DNA of 64,000 bases, taken from NCBI GenBank assembly GCA_030447925.1, contig JAUJNX010000004.1, forward strand, positions 62,001 to 126,000, in the 5' to 3' direction. This stretch comes from Egibacteraceae bacterium. GTDB lineage: Bacteria; Actinomycetota; Nitriliruptoria; Euzebyales; Egibacteraceae. The notes beneath the pieces were generated by a model. It made no database searches. It was not told the DNA's origin and saw only the letters and a program-made list of their open reading frames with translations. Positions 49,390 to 60,076 of this stretch are shown piece by piece. Numbering within the stretch: the stretch's first letter is position 1; each line of letters opens with the position of its first letter. The position numbers were made by a program, and so were the translations under genes.

Positions 49390-50676
49390 TCAGAGACGCT
49401 CGACGCGCGGGCCCGACAGGGTGCCGCTGGTGTCCAGGACCAGGGGCGACAGCCGCGTGATCAGGTCCGGGTCGTAGCTGGCGTGGGCCTGCAGGACGAT
49501 CACGAGGTCGGCGCCGGGCAGCGCCCGGGTCAGGTCGCGGCGCTCCAGGTGGACGCCGTCCACGCGCCAGGCCGGCACGTAGGGGTCGTGGAAGCGCACC
49601 TCGGCGCCCAGCTCCTTGAGCCGGCGGGCGACCGGCCGGGCCGGTGACTCCCGGTCGTCGGAGATGTCCGGCTTGTAGGTGACCCCGAGCAGCAGGATGC
49701 GCGCGTCCTTGACCGCCTTGCCCTGGTCGTTCAGCAGGCGCTGCGCCCGCGAGGTGACGTAGGCGGGCATGCGCTCGTTGATCTCCTGGGCCAGCTCCAC
49801 GAAGCGGAACGGGTAGCCCAGCTGGCGCACGCGGAACGACAGGTAGTTGGGGTCGATCGGGATGCAGTGCCCGCCGACGCCCGGACCGGGGCGGAACGGC
49901 TGGAAGCCGAACGGCTTGGTGGCCGCGGCGTCGATCACGTCCCACAGGTCGATGCCCAGGTCGTGGCAGAAGACCGCCATCTCGTTGACCAGCGCGATGT
50001 TGACGTGGCGGTAGGTGTTCTCCAGCAGCTTGGCCATCTCGGCCTCGCGGGTCCCGCGGGTGCGCACCACCTTGTCGATGAAGCGGCCGTAGAAGGCGAC
50101 CGCGCGGTCGCCGCACTCCTCGGTGACCCCGCCGACGACCTTGGGGGTGTTGCGGATGCCGTAGACCTGGTTGCCCGGGTCGATGCGCTCCGGTGAGAAC
50201 GCGAGGTGGAAGTCGGGGCCGGCCTTCAGCCCGCTGGCGTCCTGGAGGTAGGGCAGGAGCCGGTCCTCCGTCGTGCCGGGGTAGGTCGTCGACTCCAGCA
50301 CCACGAGCTGGCCGGCGTGCAGGTGCGCGCCGACGGTCGCCATCGCGCCGTCCACCGCGCCCAGATCCGGTCCCCCCGTCGCGCTCAGGGGCGTGGGCAC
50401 GCAGATGACCACCGTGTCCGCGCGGGCCAGGACGCTCGTGTCGCCGGTGGGGACGAACCCCCGGGCGAGCAGGTCGGCGACGTCGTCGTCGGTCAGGTCG
50501 TCGACGTGCGACCGTCCCCCGGCGAGGGCGGCCACCCGCTGCGCGTCGATGTCGAGGCCGACCACCGACAGTCCAGCACGGGTCGCCTCCGCCGCCAGCG
50601 GGAGGCCGACATAACCGAGCCCGACGACGACGAGATCCACGCGGTCCGCGTGCGGCAAGGGATCACCGGTCGGCAC
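49390..50676 (-). CDS. wbpA: UDP-N-acetylglucosamine 6-dehydrogenase, WbpA-like
   Basis: A 428-residue nucleotide-sugar dehydrogenase with classical motifs: LVVVGLGYVGLPLAAEATRA (NAD site), VVICVPTPLS, VVLESTTYPGTTEDRLLPYL, LAFSPERIDPGN, KLLENTYRHVNIALVNEMAV, and the catalytic cysteine in PGPGVGGHCIPIDPNYLS. These fit WbpA (UDP-GlcNAc to the uronate, first step to diamino-uronates) better than UDP-glucose dehydrogenase. GTG 50676 is chosen because AAGGAGG lies 5 nt before it; GTG 50682 would overlap that motif. TAGCGT at 50734-50739 (minus strand) is a possible -10. Confidence 0.88.
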   Translation of the reverse strand: MPTGDPLPHADRVDLVVVGLGYVGLPLAAEATRAGLSVVGLDIDAQRVAALAGGRSHVDDLTDDDVADLLARGFVPTGDTSVLARADTVVICVPTPLSATGGPDLGAVDGAMATVGAHLHAGQLVVLESTTYPGTTEDRLLPYLQDASGLKAGPDFHLAFSPERIDPGNQVYGIRNTPKVVGGVTEECGDRAVAFYGRFIDKVVRTRGTREAEMAKLLENTYRHVNIALVNEMAVFCHDLGIDLWDVIDAAATKPFGFQPFRPGPGVGGHCIPIDPNYLSFRVRQLGYPFRFVELAQEINERMPAYVTSRAQRLLNDQGKAVKDARILLLGVTYKPDISDDRESPARPVARRLKELGAEVRFHDPYVPAWRVDGVHLERRDLTRALPGADLVIVLQAHASYDPDLITRLSPLVLDTSGTLSGPRVERL

Positions 50677-50746
50677 GGACACCTCCTTGCACCCGAGTTC
50701 ACACCCGCCGTCACCCTGACGTCACGCACCGATACGCTACAGCGTC

Positions 50747-50765
50747 GGCGGGCGCGGGCCCCGCC
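50747..50765 (-). terminator. Hairpin after the SpoIID gene, possible terminator
   Basis: GGCGGG and CCCGCC form a 6-bp stem around a 7-nt loop, 35 nt beyond the stop at 50800. There is no run of T after it, so termination is uncertain; it may be only a GC-rich chance structure. Confidence 0.25.
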
Positions 50766-50799
50766 TTGAACGACGTCCGCGGGGCACCGACTGTTGCCC

Positions 50800-53218
50800 T
50801 CACAGCGCGGCGGCGAGCTGGTCGCGGACCAGATCGGTGAGCGCGGTGGTCCCGCCGAGGACGATGCCGCGGTCGAAGCGGCCGCCGCGCTCGGCGAGGA
50901 ACACCCCCACCGCCGGGGACGCGGCCAGGTCGCGGCCGTCGACGAGCAGCAGGGGCGCGTCGAGGCGCGCGGCGACGGCGCCCGCCGCCAGGGCGTCGGG
51001 GTAGTCCGACCCCGTGGCCACGACCAGCGGGCGCGGGTCGGCGCCCAGCCGGTCCAGCACCGCCGCGGGGGGGGCCGCCGAGGTCGCGAAGCGGTCGGCG
51101 CCCGCGAGGCGCTCCACGGTGTAGCCGAGCTCCTCCAGGCGGGCGCCCACCGGGTCGGCGACCGCCGCGGGACCGACCGACGACCAGGACGCGCCGGGCG
51201 CCCAGCGCCGCGAGCGCCAGCTCGGTGGGGGCCGGCAGCCGGTCGCGCTCGGTCAGCAGGGTCGGCGGGCCGTCGGGACCGGCCCCCAGCGCGCCGCGGA
51301 CAGCGCGTCGGGGAAGTCGGTGCCGCGGGCCAGGACCACCGTGCCGTCGGCACCGACGCCGGCGGCCCGGGCGGCGGCGGCGGCGGTCGCGAAGCGGTCG
51401 GGGCCGGCGACGCGCTCGACCGCCAGGCCGAGCCCGGCGAGGTCCTCCAGCACGCGCGGGCCGACGGCGACCTCGCCGCCGACCACCACCACGCGGTCGA
51501 CGCCCAGGTCGGTGAGCACGGCGGCGACCTCCCGGGCAGGCCGGCGGGGTCGGTGAGCAGCAGCGGGGCGTCGAGCCCGGCGGCCAGGGCGCCGGCGGCC
51601 AGCGCGTCGGGGTAGTCGCGGCCGGTGGTGACCACGGCGACCTCGGCCTGGTCCCAGTGGCGGCGGGCCGCGGCCACGGCCGTGCCCACGCGTGGGTCTG
51701 ACCGGCGACGCGGTCGACGGGGGCGGGGGGCTCCGGGGCGGGCGGCGGCTCCGGCACCGCGGGGGCGGGACGTCCGGCGGCGGTGGCGCGGGCGGCTCGG
51801 GCGCGGGCGGCTCGGGCGCGGGCGGTGCCGGGCGCGGCTCCGGCGCCACGCCGATCCGCCCCGCGGGACCGCCCGTGGGGCAGCCGTTGGCCGGCGTCGG
51901 CGTTGACCGAGAACAGCGTGGAACGCAGGTCCATGCTGCGGCGGAACTGGTTGCCGTCCACCGTCCGGGTCCGCTCGGTGCCGACGATCGTGACGCCGCC
52001 GTAGCCCAGGTCGAGGTCGCCGACCCGGCAGGCGTTGCCCTGCGGGCCGGGGAAGGTGACCTCCAGCGCGCGGCCGACGCCGAACGCCGCGCCCAGCTCG
52101 TCGGCGGAGACCGTGCGCGACCAGGTGCGCAGCGGGTTGTCCCCGGCGTTCTCCCAGCGCGTGTCGTCGACCGGCTGGTGGTGCGGCAGGACGCCGCCGA
52201 ACACGAACGCGGTGGACTCGCTGTACCCGGCGTGGGACGAGGAGTAGAAGGCGTCGGCCACCTGCCCGTCCACCGTCACCGCCCGCGCCGCGGAGTAGTC
52301 GGGCGACCGGGTCGCGTCCACCGCCGCGCGCCAGCGGGCGCCGAACTGGCCCCGGGACCCCTCACTCTCCTTCTCCCACCCCGAGTAGGCCTGGTCGACG
52401 GTGGTGGCGTACAGGTCGCAGCGGCAGGCCGTCCGGGCGCCCTCGTGGCGCAGCCGCCGGATCACGGCGTAGGAGCGGGCGGCGATGGCCTGGGCCTTGA
52501 GCGCCTCCTCCGGCCACGACGACGGCACCTCCGCAAGGCCGTAGAGGTAGCGGTCGAACGGCGCGACCTCCACGGTCACGAACATGGTCGGGGTCGCGTC
52601 GTACACGCTGTCGAACTCCAGGAACCCCCAGCGGTAGCGGTTGCCCGCGCGGATGATCCTGCGGTCGCCGTCGTCGGCCGACAGCCGCGCGCGCAGCAGC
52701 GCGTAGCGGTCGCCGCCGCGCCAGATCTCGCGGTCGCCGTCGCGGACGACGTAGCGCACGTCGCCGCCCTCGATCGTGAGCCCCACCGTCCAGGTGACAT
52801 CGGGGGCCAGGCGCAGGCCGGTGTCGGTGCACTCCCCGTCGCGGCACAGCTCGAAGGGGATGGTGCCCTCGACGCCGCTGACCCGGCGGGAGGTCGCGTC
52901 GGTGTCCAGGCTCACGCGCACCGCGCCGGGCATCCTGATGGTCCCGACCTGGGCGCCCGGGTAGTAGGTCTCCACGATGGTCTCGGCGTCGCAGCCCAGC
53001 AGGGCGGCACCGCGCGCGCCGTACTGGCTCATGCCGGCCCCGTGGCCCGAGCCCCCGCCGGTGATGCGGAAGTCACCGGGGTCCGGCGTCGCCGGGACGA
53101 TCTGCTCGCCGCCGGACGGCAGGCAGGTGGCCGCCGGCTGCGCCGCGGCGGGGACCGCGGGCAGGGCGGGGAGCGCCAGCAGCGCGAGGACGACCGACAC
53201 CAGGACCAAGCGCTGCAT
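50800..53218 (-). pseudogene. SpoIID/LytB-domain protein with cell-wall-binding repeats 2, frameshifted
   Basis: Intact from ATG 53218 for about 440 residues: signal peptide (LVLVSVVLALLALPALPAVP), then a SpoIID domain (GGGSGHGAGMSQYGARGAAL, FDRYLYGLAEVPSSWPEEAL, KAQAIAARSYAVIRR, FYSSSHAGYSESTAFVFGGV). It then passes through a Pro/Glu linker into three CWB2 repeats read in changing frames: TAVAAARRHWDQAEVAVVTT and GRDYPDALAAGALAAGLDAP; VERVAGPDRFATAAAAARAA and VLARGTDFPDALSA; VERLAGADRFATSAAPPAAV and GSDYPDALAAGAVAARLDAP. Shifts lie near 51895, 51760, 51695, 51530, 51290 and 51180. SpoIID acts on glycan strands in peptidoglycan remodelling; CWB2 anchors to wall polymers. Six shifts with well-kept domains suggest consensus errors as much as decay. 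Confidence 0.8.
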
Positions 53219-53220
53219 GT

Positions 53221-53262
53221 GGGGTCAACCCCTCCGTAGCGTTGCGATGACTCAGCGTCATC
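53221..53262 (-). promoter_or_regulatory. Operator-like palindrome and ribosome-site hairpin
   Basis: Two structures lie before ATG 53218. GGGGT-CA-ACCCC (53221-53232) can fold into a hairpin that takes in part of the GGAGGGG ribosome-binding site. GATGAC-TCAGC-GTCATC (53246-53262) is a 6-5-6 inverted repeat placed just after a TTGATG that could be the -35. They suggest control at transcription and translation. Confidence 0.4.
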
Positions 53263-53309
53263 AACATGCTGGCGCACGAGCGCAGAAGGGGCAAGAGGTA
53301 ACTTTGTTG

Positions 53310-55947
53310 CTAGTTGGGGCTGAAGCGCACCAGGACGCCGGTCAGCAGCGCGCCCCACCAGCACAGCTGGGACACCACGGCGGCGACCGCCGCGCGGCGG
53401 ACCAGCCCGGGTGGCGCGTCGGCGCGCGTCAGCAGCGCCGGGTACGTCGCGGCTGCGCGGCGCAGGCGGTAGGCGTTGAGCCCCCCGACCCCGATGCCGA
53501 GCACGAGCAGCAGCTTGACCCACATCAGCGGCTGCGACAGGTCCGGCGCCAGCAGCGCGCCGCTGACCAGGAGCCCCGCGTAGCCCAGCCAGATGGGCAG
53601 CTCGACGTCGGCGCCGACGCGCAGGACGTCGCCGAGGGGGCGCCGTCCCCGCAGCCAGCGCAGGCCCACCGCGTCGATCGCGACGACCCCGCCGAGGCCG
53701 ACCGCCAGCGATGCGAGGTGGACCAGCACCGCGGCCTGGAACACCAGGCGGGGCGGGTTGAGCTGGCCGCCGACCACCACGGCGTCGGCCCAGACGACCA
53801 CGAGCACCGCCAGGGCCACCAGCGGGCGGGGACCCTTCCCCGACGGGATGGTCGGGTCCGCCGCGGCCGCGCGGCGCCGGCGGGTGCCGGCCTCCTGCGC
53901 CGGAAGGGCCGTCGTGGCCGCCGCGCGGGACGTCGGCTCCTGGACCGGGAGGGCGCTGGTCGCGTCGGCGCGCGGGGTCCGGGTCGTCGGCGCCGAGGCG
54001 GGCAGTACCCCGGTGCCCTCCGCGCGGCGCGCAGGGGCGGCTGGTCGGCGGCGCGGCCGGGAGCACGCCGGCGCCGTCCGCGGCGGCGCGCGGGGGCCGG
54101 GCGCCGGGGGCGCCCAGGCGGGGTCGTCGTCGTCCAGAGGGGCCCGGCGCGCCTCGGGACCGGGCGACGGCTCCCACTGCGGGTCGCGGGGCGCCGGTGC
54201 GCGCACCTCCCCGGGGGGCGGTGCGGCCCAGGGGGCGACATCGTCGCGCGCGGGCGCGCCGGGGGCGGACCAGGCCAACGTGCCGGGCGGCGGGGTGGGG
54301 TCGTCGTCATCCACCGCGGCGGGACGCTCGGCGGCCGCACGCGTGTGCCGCGTCTCGGGTCGCCAGGGAGCGGCGGGGGCCGCCGGGGGTGCGGGCTGCG
54401 CCTCCCAGGGCGGGCGCCAGGGCACGGGGGCCGCGGCCGGCGGGTCGGTGTCGCCCCCGCCCGTCGTCGCCGGCTCCCAGCCGTCGTCGTCCGCGGCGGC
54501 CCGGCGGGTCGAGCCGTCCCACCGCTCCACGGCGGCGGCGGCGGGGGCGGGGGCGGGGTCCGGCTCGGGCTCGGGGGTCCAGCCGCTGGCGGCGCCCTGC
54601 TGGGCGGGCACGTCGTCCCACCCGTCGCCGGCCGCCGGGGGTCGGGCGGGACCGGTGCGGGGGCGGTCGGCGACCACGGCGCCGCGGCCGCCCGCGAGGT
54701 CGCGTCGGTCGGCGTCCACCGCGGACGCCCCGCCGCCGCCCGCGCGCGACGACCACGCCGCCTCGCCGAGCGGCGCCGCGGGCGCCGGGGGCGACCCGTT
54801 GGGCGACCGCGAGGACCACGGCTCGTCCCGTTCCGGCGCCGCGGCCCCCGCCGACCGCGACGACCACGGCGGGTCAGCGGGGGCGGGGCGGCGCCGTTCG
54901 ACGACCGGGACGACCACGGCGCCTCCGACACCGGCGCGGCCGGCGGCGGGCCGTCGGGAGACCTGGACGACCACGGCACGTCGGACACCGGGGGCGGCGC
55001 GGCCGGGCGTGACGACCACGGCTGCTCCCCCGACGGCGGCGGCGCGCCGTTGAGGGACCTGGACGACCACGGCGCGTCCGGCACCGGCGGCGCGGCCGGG
55101 CGTGACGACCACGGCTGCTCCCCCGACGGCGGCGGCGCCCCGCTGGGGGACCTGGACGACCACGGCGCCTCCGGCACCGTCGGCGCGGCCGGGCGTGACG
55201 ACCACGGCTGCTCCCCCGACGGCGGCGGCGCCCCGGTGGGGGACCTGGACGACCACGGCGCCTCCGGCACCGGCGGCGACGCGCCCGGGCTGACCGCCGG
55301 GCGCGACGACCACGGCTGCTCACCCGCAGGCGGCGCATCGTCGGGCGACCCGGACGACCACGGCACGTCGCGCTGCGGCGAGGGCGCGGCCGGGGCGGCA
55401 GGCCGCGACCACGGCTGCTCGCCCGACGGCGGCGGCGCGCCGTTGAGGGACCTGGACGACCACGGCGCGTCCGGCACCGGCGGCGAGGCGGGCGGGGCCG
55501 CCGGGCGCGACGACCACGGCTGCTCGCCCGCCGGCGGCGGCGGGCCGTTCGGGGACCTTGACGACCATGGCGCGTCGGGCACCGGCGGCGGCGGGGCCGG
55601 GCGCGACGACCACGGCTGGTCGCCCGCCGGCGGCGGCGCTGGGCCCGCGGCGGGGGCGCCGCCGGGGCCGGCGGGCGGGACGACCACGGCTCGTCGCGGG
55701 GCGGGGCCCACGGGTCGGCGGCCGGGGGCGGCCCGTCGCGGGGGGTGGGGCGGGCGGCGCGGGAGGTGATGGGGGACGTCGTGGGCGGGACCTCGTCGGA
55801 CGGCGGCCGCCGCCACGCGCCCTCGTCGCGGTCGTCCGCGGGCACGGCAGGAGCACCGGGGGCGGGCTCGCCGGTCATGACGGCGTGCCAGCCACCGCGT
55901 TCGTCGGCGACCTGCCAACCGTTACGGGTCTCCGGCCTGTGCTGCAT
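53310..55947 (-). pseudogene. PWSSR-repeat membrane protein, frameshifted
   Basis: The restored product is about 879 residues. N-terminus (ATG 55947): HRPETRNGWQVADERGGWHA. A long disordered region carries about 19 copies of [DE]xPWSSR[SP], mostly as 31-residue units such as DAPWSSRSLNGAPPPSGEQ. An acidic Pro/Trp-rich stretch follows (DDGWEPATTGGG, DDDDPAWAPPAPGP), then TxALP-type short repeats. The C-terminal 190 residues have about five membrane segments (LVALAVLVVVWADAVVVGG, LVHLASLAVGLGGVVAIDAV, LPIWLGYAGLLVSGALLAPD, MWVKLLLVLGIGVGGLNAYR, VSQLCWWGALLTGVLV). Frames change near 55670, 54890 and twice near 54050-54110. TATGGT lies 7 nt before the ATG. The membrane part faintly recalls CopD-like proteins; function unknown. 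Confidence 0.7.
54745..55690. repeat. Coding tandem repeats, 93-bp unit
   Basis: The block GACGACCACGGC (reverse complement codes PWSSR) recurs about 19 times. The regular core has a 93-bp period, with CGTGACGACCACGGCTGCTC at 55008, 55101 and 55194, then a 108-bp step to about 55302; flanking units are degenerate. Copies differ by scattered substitutions, so this is an old, diverging array rather than a simple duplication. Confidence 0.85.
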
Positions 55948-55972
55948 GCGACCGACCATAGTCCACCGGGTC

Positions 55973-56026: not shown

Positions 56027-56938
56027 CTACGCGTGCCCGTGCGTCTTCCCCCGCAGGGCCGTCCACGCCATCGCCGCCAGCACCCACGCGACCAGCCCCA
56101 GGCGGATCAGCGGCCGCAGCGCCGCCCGCCGCCCGCGCGCGTACCGGGCGCCGAAGAACCGGTCGAGCGAGCGCGCGTGCTCCACGGCCATGCGGTAGCG
56201 CACCCGCGACACCGACCCGCCGACCGTGTGGAGGATCTCGGTGACCGGTGAGAACACGACCAGCCACCCGGCCTCGCCCATGCGCGCGCACAGGTCGACG
56301 TCCTCGACGAACATGAAGTACCGCGCGTCGAACCCGCCGACGGCGTCGAACGCCTGGCGCCGCACCGCCATGCACGCGCCGCTGACCCAGTCGACGACCC
56401 GCTCGCTGCGGTGGTCCCAGTCGCTCAGGCGGTAGGCGCGCGTCCACGGGTTCTGCGGCCAGAACAGCCCGAACGCGGCGTGCGCGAGCGCCTGCCCGAT
56501 CGACGGGAACGACCGCGCGGACAGCTGCAGCCGCCCGTCGGGGAAGCGGATCAGCGGCCCGAGGACCCCGACCTCGGGCCGGGCCACCAGGAAGTCCCGC
56601 ATCGCCTTTGCCGACCCCGGCGGGAAGCGGGTGTCGGCGTTGGCCAGGACGACGACCTCGGCCGACGACGCGGCGACGCCGGTGTTGGCCGCCTGCCCGA
56701 AGCCGACGTTGGGCAGCGACAGCACCAGGGCGTCGGGGTCGGCCGCCTGCGCCGCGGCGGCGCTGCCGTCGCTGGACCCCGAGTCCACGACCACGATCTG
56801 GTCGGCGCCGGCGTCGCGCAGGGACTCCAGGCACGCGACGAGGTCGTCGCGGGTGTCGTGCACGACGACGACGACGGCGACCCGGACCTCGGCGTCGCCG
56901 GTGCCGGGACGGACGAGGTCCGGCGCGACGGCGCTCAT
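56027..56938 (-). CDS. wbbL: GT2 rhamnosyltransferase, WbbL-like
   Basis: A 303-residue GT2 enzyme: VAVVVVVHDTRDDLVACLES, IVVVDSGSSDGSAAAAQAAD, LSLPNVGFGQAANTGVAAS, VVVLANADTRFPPGSAKAMR (NAD as metal site), FPDGRLQLSARSFPSIGQAL, WVSGACMAVRRQAFDAVGGF, FMFVEDVDLCARMGEAGWLV. This is the profile of dTDP-rhamnose-dependent rhamnosyltransferases such as mycobacterial WbbL, which adds rhamnose to GlcNAc-PP-polyprenol to form the linker of the wall polysaccharide. It ends the LCP-rmlA-rmlB-rmlD operon, as expected if it uses the dTDP-rhamnose made there. Confidence 0.87.
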   Translation of the reverse strand: MSAVAPDLVRPGTGDAEVRVAVVVVVHDTRDDLVACLESLRDAGADQIVVVDSGSSDGSAAAAQAADPDALVLSLPNVGFGQAANTGVAASSAEVVVLANADTRFPPGSAKAMRDFLVARPEVGVLGPLIRFPDGRLQLSARSFPSIGQALAHAAFGLFWPQNPWTRAYRLSDWDHRSERVVDWVSGACMAVRRQAFDAVGGFDARYFMFVEDVDLCARMGEAGWLVVFSPVTEILHTVGGSVSRVRYRMAVEHARSLDRFFGARYARGRRAALRPLIRLGLVAWVLAAMAWTALRGKTHGHA

Positions 56939-57072: not shown

Positions 57073-57924
57073 TCACCTGGCGGCCGCCGGGGCCAGCTCG
57101 GCGACCAGCCGCGGCAGGGACTCCTCCCAGCGCGGTAGGGGCGGCAGGCCCGTCAGCCGCGCCATGAGGTTGTCGAGCACCGAGTTCGCCGGCCGCGGGG
57201 CGGGCGCCCCGTACTCGGCGGTGGTGATCGGCGCGACCGCCACGTCGAGCCCCGCTTCGCGGTAAGCGGCGACGGCGAGCTCGTACCAGGTGCAGGTCCC
57301 GCTGTTGGTCAGGTGGTAGGTCCCGAAGCGCCCGGTGACGGCCAGGCGGCGGATCGCCGGGGCCAGGTCGAACGTGAATGTCGGCGACCCGGTCTGGTCC
57401 GCGACGACCTTGACCGCGTCGCGCTCGCGGCCGACCCGCAGCATGGTGCGCACGAAGTTGCCCCCGTGCGCGCCGAGCACCCACGAGGTGCGCACGATGT
57501 GGTGCCGCGGGAGGGTCTGGCGGACCAGCTGCTCACCCGCCGCCTTGGACCGCCCGTAGACCGACTGCGGGTTGACCGCGTCGAACTCGGTGTAGGGCCG
57601 GTCGGACCGCCCGTCGAACACGTAGTCGGTGGACACGTGCACCATCACCGCGTCGCCCAGCGCGCAGGCCCGCGCCACCCACCACGGCGCCAGCGCGTTG
57701 GCGCGCCACGCCGCGTCGGGCTCGGACTCCGCGGCGTCGACCTTGGTGTGCGCGGCGGCGTGGACGACGAGGTCCGGGGCGTGGTCGCGGACGGACGCGA
57801 CGACCGCGGCCTCGTCGGTGACGTCCAGGTCGGCCCGGGTGAGCCCGACCACGTCGTGGTCGGCGAAGGCCTTCACCAGGTCGTGCCCCAGCTGCCCCCC
57901 GGCGCCGGTGACGACGACCCTCAC
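57073..57924 (-). CDS. rmlD: dTDP-4-dehydrorhamnose reductase
   Basis: A 283-residue short-chain reductase: VVVTGAGGQLGHDLVKAF (NADPH site), TRADLDVTD, PDLVVHAAAHTKVDAAESEP, VHVSTDYVFDGRSDRPYTEF, catalytic YGRSK, VRTSWVLGAHGGNFVRTML, VVADQTGSPTF. These are RmlD signatures; it makes dTDP-L-rhamnose, the last step of the pathway. GTG 57924 overlaps the rmlB stop as GTGA. Confidence 0.95.
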   Translation of the reverse strand: MRVVVTGAGGQLGHDLVKAFADHDVVGLTRADLDVTDEAAVVASVRDHAPDLVVHAAAHTKVDAAESEPDAAWRANALAPWWVARACALGDAVMVHVSTDYVFDGRSDRPYTEFDAVNPQSVYGRSKAAGEQLVRQTLPRHHIVRTSWVLGAHGGNFVRTMLRVGRERDAVKVVADQTGSPTFTFDLAPAIRRLAVTGRFGTYHLTNSGTCTWYELAVAAYREAGLDVAVAPITTAEYGAPAPRPANSVLDNLMARLTGLPPLPRWEESLPRLVAELAPAAAR

Positions 57925-58982
57925 GGCCGCGCCCCGCCCTCGGGCTCCGCCTCCGGGTCGATGCGCGCGTCGGTGGACGGCACGGGCCCGGCCGGGGGCA
58001 GGCCGCGGCGCTGGGTCGCGCCCTGCGCCTTGAGGGGCCGCCACCACCACTCGTTGGCCCGGTACCAGTCGATGGTGGCGTCCAGGGCGGCGTCGAAGGC
58101 CGTCTCCGGCTTCCACCCCAGGGCCCGCACCTTGGCGGTGTCGACCGAATAGCGCAGGTCGTGGCCGGGCCGGTCGGCGACGTGGCGGATCATGTCCTCG
58201 CCCGCGCCGAAGCGGTCGAGCAGGCGCAGGGTCAGCTCGCGGTTGGTCATCTCGTTGCCCGCGCCGACGTTGTAGACCTCGCCGGGCGTGCCCTCGGTCA
58301 GCACCAGCCACTGCGCCGCGACGTTGTCCAGGACGTAGGTCCAGTCGCGCACGTTGCGCCCGTCGCCGTACAGCGGCACCGGCTGGCCGTCGATCAGGTT
58401 GGTGACGAACAGGGGGATGACCTTCTCCGGGAAGTGGTACGGGCCGAAGTTGTTGGCCGTCCGGGTCACCGTGATCGGGTACCCGTAGGTCACCCCGTAG
58501 GAGCGCGCGAGCAGGTCCGCGGACGCCTTGGACGCCGCGTACGGCGAGTTGGGCTCCAGGGCGTCGCCCTCGACGAAGGAGTCCGGCTCGGGGATCGAGC
58601 CGTAGGTCTCGTCGGTGGAGATGTGCAGGACGCGGCCGACATCGGCGCGCATCGCGGCCTCGAAGACGGTGTTCGCGCCCAGCACGTTGGTGGTCACGAA
58701 CTCCGCGGACCCGGTGATGGACCGGTCGACGTGGGTCTCGGCGGCGAAGTTCACGACCGCGTCGTGGCCGGGCAGGACCTCGGCGAGCGCGGCGCCGTCG
58801 ACGATGTCGCCCTGCACGAAGGTGTAGCGCGGGTCGTCGGCGAGGTCGCGCAGCGACGCGGGGTTGCCCGCGTAGGTCAGCTTGTCGTAGTTGGTGACCC
58901 GCACGTCGGGCTGGGTGGTCAGCACGTGGCGGATGAAGTTGGAGCCGATGAACCCGGCCCCGCCGGTGACGAGGATGCGCAT
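57921..58982 (-). CDS. rmlB: dTDP-glucose 4,6-dehydratase
   Basis: A 353-residue enzyme: MRILVTGGAGFIGSNFIRH (NAD site), VTNYDKLTYAGNPASLRDL, VVNFAAETHVDRSITGSAEF, HISTDETYGSI (catalytic T-D-E), YAASK, RTANNFGPYHFPEKVIPLFV, LYGDGRNVRDWTYVLDN, all standard for RmlB, which converts dTDP-glucose to the 4-keto-6-deoxy sugar. ATG 58982 directly follows the rmlA stop (TAGATG). The last 25 residues are an extra Pro/Glu-rich tail. Confidence 0.96.
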   Translation of the reverse strand: MRILVTGGAGFIGSNFIRHVLTTQPDVRVTNYDKLTYAGNPASLRDLADDPRYTFVQGDIVDGAALAEVLPGHDAVVNFAAETHVDRSITGSAEFVTTNVLGANTVFEAAMRADVGRVLHISTDETYGSIPEPDSFVEGDALEPNSPYAASKASADLLARSYGVTYGYPITVTRTANNFGPYHFPEKVIPLFVTNLIDGQPVPLYGDGRNVRDWTYVLDNVAAQWLVLTEGTPGEVYNVGAGNEMTNRELTLRLLDRFGAGEDMIRHVADRPGHDLRYSVDTAKVRALGWKPETAFDAALDATIDWYRANEWWWRPLKAQGATQRRGLPPAGPVPSTDARIDPEAEPEGGARP

Positions 58983-60059
58983 CTAGACCAGTCCCACCTT
59001 GCTGTGGTCGCCCAGCATCAGCCGGTACGCGTGCGGCTTGCGGTCGGTGCGCCCGACCTCGACGTTGCGCCCGATCAGCGAGTCGACGAGCCGGCGCATG
59101 TCGCGGATCGTGGTCTGCTCCAGGACGACGCTGTGCTCGATCTCGGAGTCCTCGATCACGCACGAGTGGTAGATCGCCGTGTACGGCCCGACGAAGGTGT
59201 TCACCAGGCGCGTGCCCTTGCCGATGATGGCGGGCCCGCGCACGAAGGTGTTGACCAGCTGCGCGCCCTCCTCGATGACGACGCGGCCCTGGACCTCGCT
59301 GCGCTCGTCGAGGTGGCCGTCGATGCGCTGCTCGTAGGACTCCAGGACGATGCGGTTCGCCTCGAGCAGGTCGTAGAGCTTGCCGGTGTCCTTCCACCGC
59401 GCCGCCCACCAGCCCTCGATGACGTGGGAGCGCACCGTGTCGCCCTCGTCGATGAGCCACTGGATCGCGTCGGTGATCTCCAGCTCGCCGCGGTCGCTCG
59501 GCTTGATCGCGTGCGCCGCCTCCAGGATGCGGGCGGAGAACACGTAGCACCCGACCAGCGCCAGGTCGCTCTGCGGGTCCTCGGGCTTCTCCACCAGGCG
59601 GGTCACGTCGCCGTTGGGGCCCAGCTCCGCGACGCCGAACTGGCGCGGGTCGCCGACCGGGGACAGCAGGATCTGCGCGGCCGGTCGCGTGGTCCGGAAC
59701 TCCTCCACGAACTCCGCGATCCCGCCGACGATGAGGTTGTCGCCGAGATACATCACGAAGTCGTCGTCGCCCAGGAACGCCTCGGCCGTCAGCACCGCAT
59801 GGGCGAGGCCGAGCGGCTGGGGCTGGTGGACGTAGGTGGCGGAGATGCCGAAGCGGGAGCCGTCGCCGACGTGGGCGCGGATCTCCTCGTGGGTCTCCCC
59901 GACGATGATCCCGACGTCGGTGATGCCCGCGTCGCGGATCGCCTCCAGGCCGAACTCCAGGATCGGCTTGTTGCCGACCGGCACGAGCTGCTTGGCGCTC
60001 GTGTTGGTGATCGGGCGGAGGCGCGTGCCGGCGCCTCCCGACAGCACCAGGGCCTTCAT
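58983..60059 (-). CDS. rmlA: Glucose-1-phosphate thymidylyltransferase, long form
   Basis: A 358-residue nucleotidyltransferase: MKALVLSGGAGTRLRPITNT, SAKQLVPVGNKPILEFGLEA, FVMYLGDNLIVGGIAEFVEE, RLVEKPEDPQSDLALVGCYV, and a C-terminal left-handed beta-helix (VVIEEGAQLVNTFVRGPAII, YTAIYHSCVIEDSEIEHSVV). The long form with beta-helix is common in actinobacteria and archaea; it makes dTDP-glucose and may instead use another sugar phosphate. ATG 60059 has GAGGAG about 9 nt upstream, and the gene follows the LCP gene by 17 bp. Confidence 0.9.
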   Translation of the reverse strand: MKALVLSGGAGTRLRPITNTSAKQLVPVGNKPILEFGLEAIRDAGITDVGIIVGETHEEIRAHVGDGSRFGISATYVHQPQPLGLAHAVLTAEAFLGDDDFVMYLGDNLIVGGIAEFVEEFRTTRPAAQILLSPVGDPRQFGVAELGPNGDVTRLVEKPEDPQSDLALVGCYVFSARILEAAHAIKPSDRGELEITDAIQWLIDEGDTVRSHVIEGWWAARWKDTGKLYDLLEANRIVLESYEQRIDGHLDERSEVQGRVVIEEGAQLVNTFVRGPAIIGKGTRLVNTFVGPYTAIYHSCVIEDSEIEHSVVLEQTTIRDMRRLVDSLIGRNVEVGRTDRKPHAYRLMLGDHSKVGLV

Positions 60060-60076
60060 CGCCTGACTCCTCGGGT

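Follow-up and report, generated by a model that had tools for sequence, protein, structure and literature searches.

The locus and its reading frames

The window, that is, the whole 64,000-nucleotide stretch of DNA analysed here, contains on its minus strand an envelope-sugar neighbourhood, in which a gene encoding a tryptophan-motif array joined to a membrane domain (below, the arm gene) is embedded. The same-strand order is rmlA-rmlB-rmlD-GT2, the arm gene, SpoIID/CWB2 and UDP-glucose dehydrogenase; the neighbours were assigned with Pfam, and the parts of the arm gene were joined by the GC phase and the motif register.

58986-60065, minus strand: RmlA-like nucleotidyltransferase, upstream
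57924-58982, minus strand: RmlB-like dehydratase, upstream
57076-57999, minus strand: RmlD, upstream
56030-56938, minus strand: glycosyltransferase family 2, upstream
53310..55959, minus strand: inferred whole arm gene, with about 883 aa on the assumption of a single missing base per break
55660..55959, minus strand: segment 1, the N-terminus, which has a GWxVADExGGWHA head, and PWSSR copy 1; frame 0, third-position GC phase 1
55615..55675, minus strand: frame break 1, W-to-W spacing of 74 nt, one base short
54890..55651, minus strand: segment 2, motifs 2-16 in alternating A and B half-units of a 93-bp tandem repeat; third-position GC phase 2
54869..54905, minus strand: frame break 2, in a C-rich run, W-to-W spacing of 50 nt versus 51
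53310..54884, minus strand: segment 3, motifs 17-19, an acidic Trp region, juxtamembrane repeats, the membrane domain and the stop; open frame, GC phase 0
within 49399..53218, minus strand: protein with SpoIID and cell-wall-binding CWB2 domains, frame-split, downstream
49399-50652, minus strand: UDP-glucose dehydrogenase, downstream

The arm gene may start at an ATG at 55959 or at 55947. The gap between the glycosyltransferase gene and the arm gene is about 68 nt, hence read-through transcription is possible. A scan for promoters and terminators returned none. In particular, the leaderless promoter that had been proposed for the ATG gained no support, as no sigma-70-like site was found, and a lone TATGGT seen by eye upstream of the ATG at 55947, at a distance of 7 nt, is weak.

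A continuous frame was not confirmed: the region 55959-53310 contains no single ORF and consists of three open segments in three frames, holding motif 1, motifs 2-16, and motifs 17-19 with the membrane domain, respectively. The GC-richest codon phase shifts from 1 to 2 to 0 along the gene, in step with the frames of the motifs, and the third-position GC content is about 0.9 or more in the coding phases, being lower only at the extreme N-terminus. The distances between the Trp codons in the array are multiples of three, the exceptions being those of 74 and 50 nt at the two breaks. Since each of these would be divisible by three with one more base, the simplest account of each break is a single missing base.

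The motif array and its conservation

The following features lie along the arm gene, from the N-terminal to the C-terminal part of its product.

54744..55689, minus strand: array of 19 [DE]x[PA]WSSR-type motifs
54110..54743, minus strand: acidic region rich in Pro and Ala, containing DDDD blocks and another 11 Trp residues
53871..54110, minus strand: juxtamembrane repeats A[DE]xTx[AV]LP[AV], then RRRR
53313..53852, minus strand: predicted five-helix membrane domain, N-in/C-out (AlphaFold2, homologue alignment, loop charges)

This layout agrees with the initial annotation in two respects: about 19 copies of a [DE]xPWSSR-type motif had been claimed, and 19 were counted on the minus strand from 55689 to 54744; an acidic Trp/Pro region and then a five-helix membrane domain were said to follow the repeats, and both were located. 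Sixteen of the motifs are exact PWSSR copies, and the others are one AWSSR, one PWSSG and one PWSR (without one Ser codon). The residue at position -3 is acidic in 19/19 copies, and the motifs recur every 14-19 residues on a Pro/Ala spacer. WSSR occurs 17 times in the real arm, compared with an average of 0.03 and a maximum of 2 in shuffled sequences of the same composition.

The proposed tandem unit of 93 bp, or 31 residues, was recovered by Tandem Repeats Finder in its length (93-bp unit, 7.1 copies, score 739), but not as a uniform period, as it really comprises two half-units, A (GEQPWSSRP) and B ([DE]APWSSRS). The B-to-A distance is almost always 51 nt, whereas between A and the next B it lies anywhere from 42 to 57 nt.

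If the motif is maintained as a protein sequence, codon differences between its copies should be mainly synonymous in the PWSSR frame. In the PWSSR core, 26 of the 28 codon differences from the consensus (18 aligned copies) are synonymous and two are nonsynonymous; the mean synonymous share under the null model is 0.26, and 0/5000 simulations reached 0.93. As the copies are related by duplication, the conservative count is that of distinct codon variants, which gives 6 synonymous and 2 nonsynonymous. The codon choice varies both for Arg (CGC/CGG/AGG) and for the second Ser (TCC/TCG/TCA). Over nine codons, the synonymous share in the PWSSR frame is 0.39, the highest of the six frames, the others having 0.06-0.20. 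Thus, the high synonymous share in this frame supports both constraint on the motif at the protein level and the minus-strand frame as the coding one.

The arm preceding the membrane domain has about 698 residues, as counted after concatenation of the three open segments, and consists of 24% Pro, 19% Ala, 10% Ser and 9% Arg. Its 34 Trp residues (4.9%) are fairly evenly spaced, with a similar pitch in the acidic region and in the motif array, and there are no Tyr, Phe or Lys residues. Judging by this composition, the arm is probably disordered. TGG (Trp) is the sole G+C-rich aromatic codon, and GC pressure may be behind a part of the Trp bias.

The juxtamembrane repeats form a separate family of 3-4 copies with Thr-Ser-Arg, a candidate cluster of kinase/FHA sites. 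One of the copies (about 54084-54037) is in another frame, which hints at a further compensating pair of indels.

The membrane domain, its family and the search for the arm

An AlphaFold2 model built from a 12-sequence alignment predicts five helices (mean pLDDT 90.7, pTM 0.80). Lys and Arg are concentrated in loops 2-3 and 4-5 (5 and 6 residues, respectively), with 1, 0 and 1 on the opposite side, and RRRR immediately precedes helix 1. Because of this distribution, the positive-inside rule predicts the arm to be cytoplasmic.

As far as Pfam, NCBIfam and PDB are concerned, the statement that no described family resembles this protein stands, for the arm as well as for the membrane domain. Searches of Pfam-A and NCBIfam profiles with the gene and with the membrane domain gave no match above the cut-off, and PDB sequence and profile searches with the membrane domain gave none. 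The best Foldseek match in PDB was a talin helix bundle with E 0.29 (cut-off E <= 0.001), and comparison of the fold with viral models yielded no significant match.

At the same time, the membrane domain has relatives. In a profile search of contigs, the single-sequence query produced 0 matches, and a two-row profile produced ten. Homologues were found in ten named actinobacteria from Nocardia, Streptomyces, Arthrobacter and Pseudarthrobacter, in 28/200 genomes of the family of one Streptomyces-like match, and in 6/396 genomes across the phylum, this one included; there were 0 in the remaining 65 genomes of the class, and a plasmid search also returned none. The domain is 31-41% identical to 11 aligned homologues, with invariant H45, D60, W88, K113 and SQxCWW; wider homologues relax this set in part, e.g. 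to SQxGWW. The window protein has the conserved H, D, W and K and the SQxCWW motif and hence is a member of this five-helix family. Homologues over the whole domain are short, stand-alone proteins of about 190-230 aa (a usual trait of the family and not a strictly defining one), from which the window protein departs by its arm of about 690 residues. The stand-alone Streptomyces, Arthrobacter and Nocardia proteins share the membrane domain, but their own N-terminal tail is short and has no Trp arm. A comparison across ten further actinobacteria showed no conserved gene neighbourhood around members of the family, save between two close Streptomyces. Thus, the membrane domain represents an undescribed, patchily distributed actinobacterial family.

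The same genome encodes a paralogue of the membrane domain (43% identity), which groups with the window protein in the tree with full support. This paralogue, on contig C5, adjoins a LigD-like gene (by eye), and no PWSSR motif was seen in its poorly defined N-terminus. Two distant relatives come from other lineages (genomes G121 and G181): in one, a signal peptide and a predicted extracytoplasmic domain precede the membrane domain (415 aa), and the other adjoins a methionine sulfoxide reductase-like gene (by eye).

Relatives of the arm itself were sought with queries covering its N-terminal head and the PWSSR repeats. None of the homologues of the membrane domain has an arm, and no PWSSR repeats occur elsewhere in the same genome. 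Within the class (65 genomes besides this one), there was one marginal match to the repeats (E 0.0096, with two stops), and the matches to the N-terminal head were at the chance level (E 0.008 or worse). A DNA pattern of two motifs in tandem matches 14 times in this genome and also in 21/395 other genomes of the phylum, mostly once in each; for the most part they are isolated pairs, about as frequent as the matches of the reversed control pattern, and no comparable array was found in the 395 genomes. A lack of homologues with the repeats had been set beforehand as a refuting outcome, and no such homologue was found in the genomes searched. Since repeat-bearing homologues are absent from these genomes, the arm appears to be a lineage-specific addition and not a trait of the family. 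A literature search with the motif string returned one unrelated match and nothing relevant, and we know of no regular arrays of Trp-based linear motifs on bacterial membrane proteins.

The pattern search also raised two arrays in other genomes with several matches each. The one in G227 was considered as a relative of the PWSSR array and rejected, the best reading being a DDRDDQ repeat encoded on the opposite strand; this acidic DDRDDQ-type repeat, reached via the antisense of the Trp pattern, belongs to a protein with a signal-like N-terminus. The other, in G193, is a large GC-rich array of TGGTCCTCGAGGGGC units with several open frames and WSSRG in some.

Possible roles of the arm

Our preferred reading, put forward tentatively, is that the gene product is tethered to the membrane close to the envelope-glycan machinery and serves there as a multivalent scaffold or docking array, with the arm gained in this lineage. 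A five-helix inner-membrane protein would have acquired a disordered cytoplasmic arm of roughly 690 residues as a multivalent display, in which each [DE]xPWSSR would be a short linear motif made of an acidic residue, Pro, Trp, two Ser and Arg. The display would then gather at the membrane either numerous molecules of a partner or, via Trp-Arg and Trp-Pro contacts, numerous arms like itself. The likeliest use would be the clustering or positioning of factors that assemble envelope glycans, since rmlA-rmlB-rmlD-GT2 are located before the gene, and SpoIID/CWB2 and UDP-glucose dehydrogenase after it.

Three motifs share an open frame with the membrane domain, which has homologues, and this counts for the scaffold; the arm having no homologue in the searched genomes and the frame breaks splitting the gene count against it. 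As for the link to glycans, the sugar genes may be mere neighbours, and elsewhere the neighbourhood is not conserved. Of the cytoplasmic multivalent docking arm suggested in the initial annotation, the inside location agrees with the loop charges and the motif is constrained, whereas docking itself, along with multivalent binding or clustering and the link to glycan assembly, is what we infer. A narrower version, in which [DE]xPWSSR would be a dedicated docking ligand for a cytosolic domain, recruiting up to about 19 partners per anchor and organising rhamnose-glycan assembly, seems rather doubtful.

Alternatively, tandem duplication in a very GC-rich genome could have lengthened a Pro/Ala cytoplasmic tail, serving as a spacer or brush with no specific partner. 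Pro and Ala make up 44% of the arm, GC pressure favours Trp (TGG) over Tyr and Phe, and the arm is missing from all homologues, all of which fit such a tail. However, a mere spacer would be expected neither to keep WSSR through synonymous change nor to have an acidic residue at -3 in every copy, and we hold this explanation to be unlikely, though still deserving of some weight.

The arm could also be a phospho-switch, phosphorylated by Ser/Thr kinases and read by FHA proteins, comparable to Rv1747 and PknF in Mycobacterium. In this case the juxtamembrane A[DE]xTxxLP repeats would be more likely sites than the SS pairs proposed in the initial annotation, and six FHA domains are encoded in the genome. 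The PknA-dependent Thr sites of M. tuberculosis favour upstream acidic residues and Leu/Val at +3 (PMC7164672), a preference to which the TxxL repeats next to the membrane partly conform. On the other hand, these repeats have just 3-4 copies, and the PWSSR array offers Ser and does not match the reported preference for Thr (PMC7164672), so that a phospho-switch seems improbable.

We also give little credence to the possibility that the gene is decayed, the frame breaks being true mutations and only fragments being made. There are at least two frame breaks and probably the further compensating pair, and the relatives do without the arm. However, in the adjacent SpoIID/CWB2 gene (50493-51849, minus strand), the CWB2 domains are in different frames, a sign of assembly indels, and a codon-model pass over 60 kb showed about 30 frame switches, of which some fall within a single gene, although a part of the switches are ordinary gene overlaps. 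Since the neighbouring gene is also split and the switches are so numerous, an assembly indel error is a more likely cause of the breaks in the arm gene than decay. In addition, decay is at odds with the high third-position GC content outside the N-terminus and with the constraint on the motif.

Finally, it is very hard to credit that the DDHG-type repeats of a 930-aa plus-strand frame, open over 52977-55769 and chosen by codon composition alone for 54888-55313, are coding and the minus-strand motifs their by-product, as the synonymous share there is 0.20 or less versus 0.39, the plus frame would cross the conserved membrane domain in the antisense direction, and three motifs are in the frame of that domain.

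The arm is real, selected and unusual, but comes from a single genome with imperfect sequence. If, as in the scaffold reading, it gathers partners, it would provide a simple natural system for studying how valence sets clustering at the bacterial membrane, with the advantage of one motif of known spacing and copy number. A further reason for interest is the five-helix family itself, which is uncharacterised and in which His, Lys and SQxCWW residues are nearly invariant.

Among known systems, Rv1747 of M. tuberculosis is an ABC transporter with FHA domains that clusters via its disordered cytoplasmic region, a linker that phase-separates and forms nanoclusters (PMC9312465); given this, it is plausible by analogy that the arm protein works in a like manner. 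What the two have in common is that each is a membrane protein of an actinobacterium, with a disordered region on the cytoplasmic side and a presumed role in the envelope. However, Rv1747 has FHA domains and an ABC cassette, and the arm gene encodes neither of these nor any other Pfam domain, so the arm protein was rejected as a member of the Rv1747 type. Clustering of Rv1747 proceeds via the FHA domains and phosphorylation, whereas that of the arm protein would proceed via the Trp motifs.

To our knowledge, scaffolds of the PopZ and CsoS2 type have no membrane anchor. PopZ, CsoS2 and other bacterial disordered scaffolds are likewise long, low-complexity, multivalent chains that gather clients (PMC9312465). 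In the arm protein the motif is Trp-Ser-Ser-Arg, and its likeness to these scaffolds would be a functional one, drawn by analogy.
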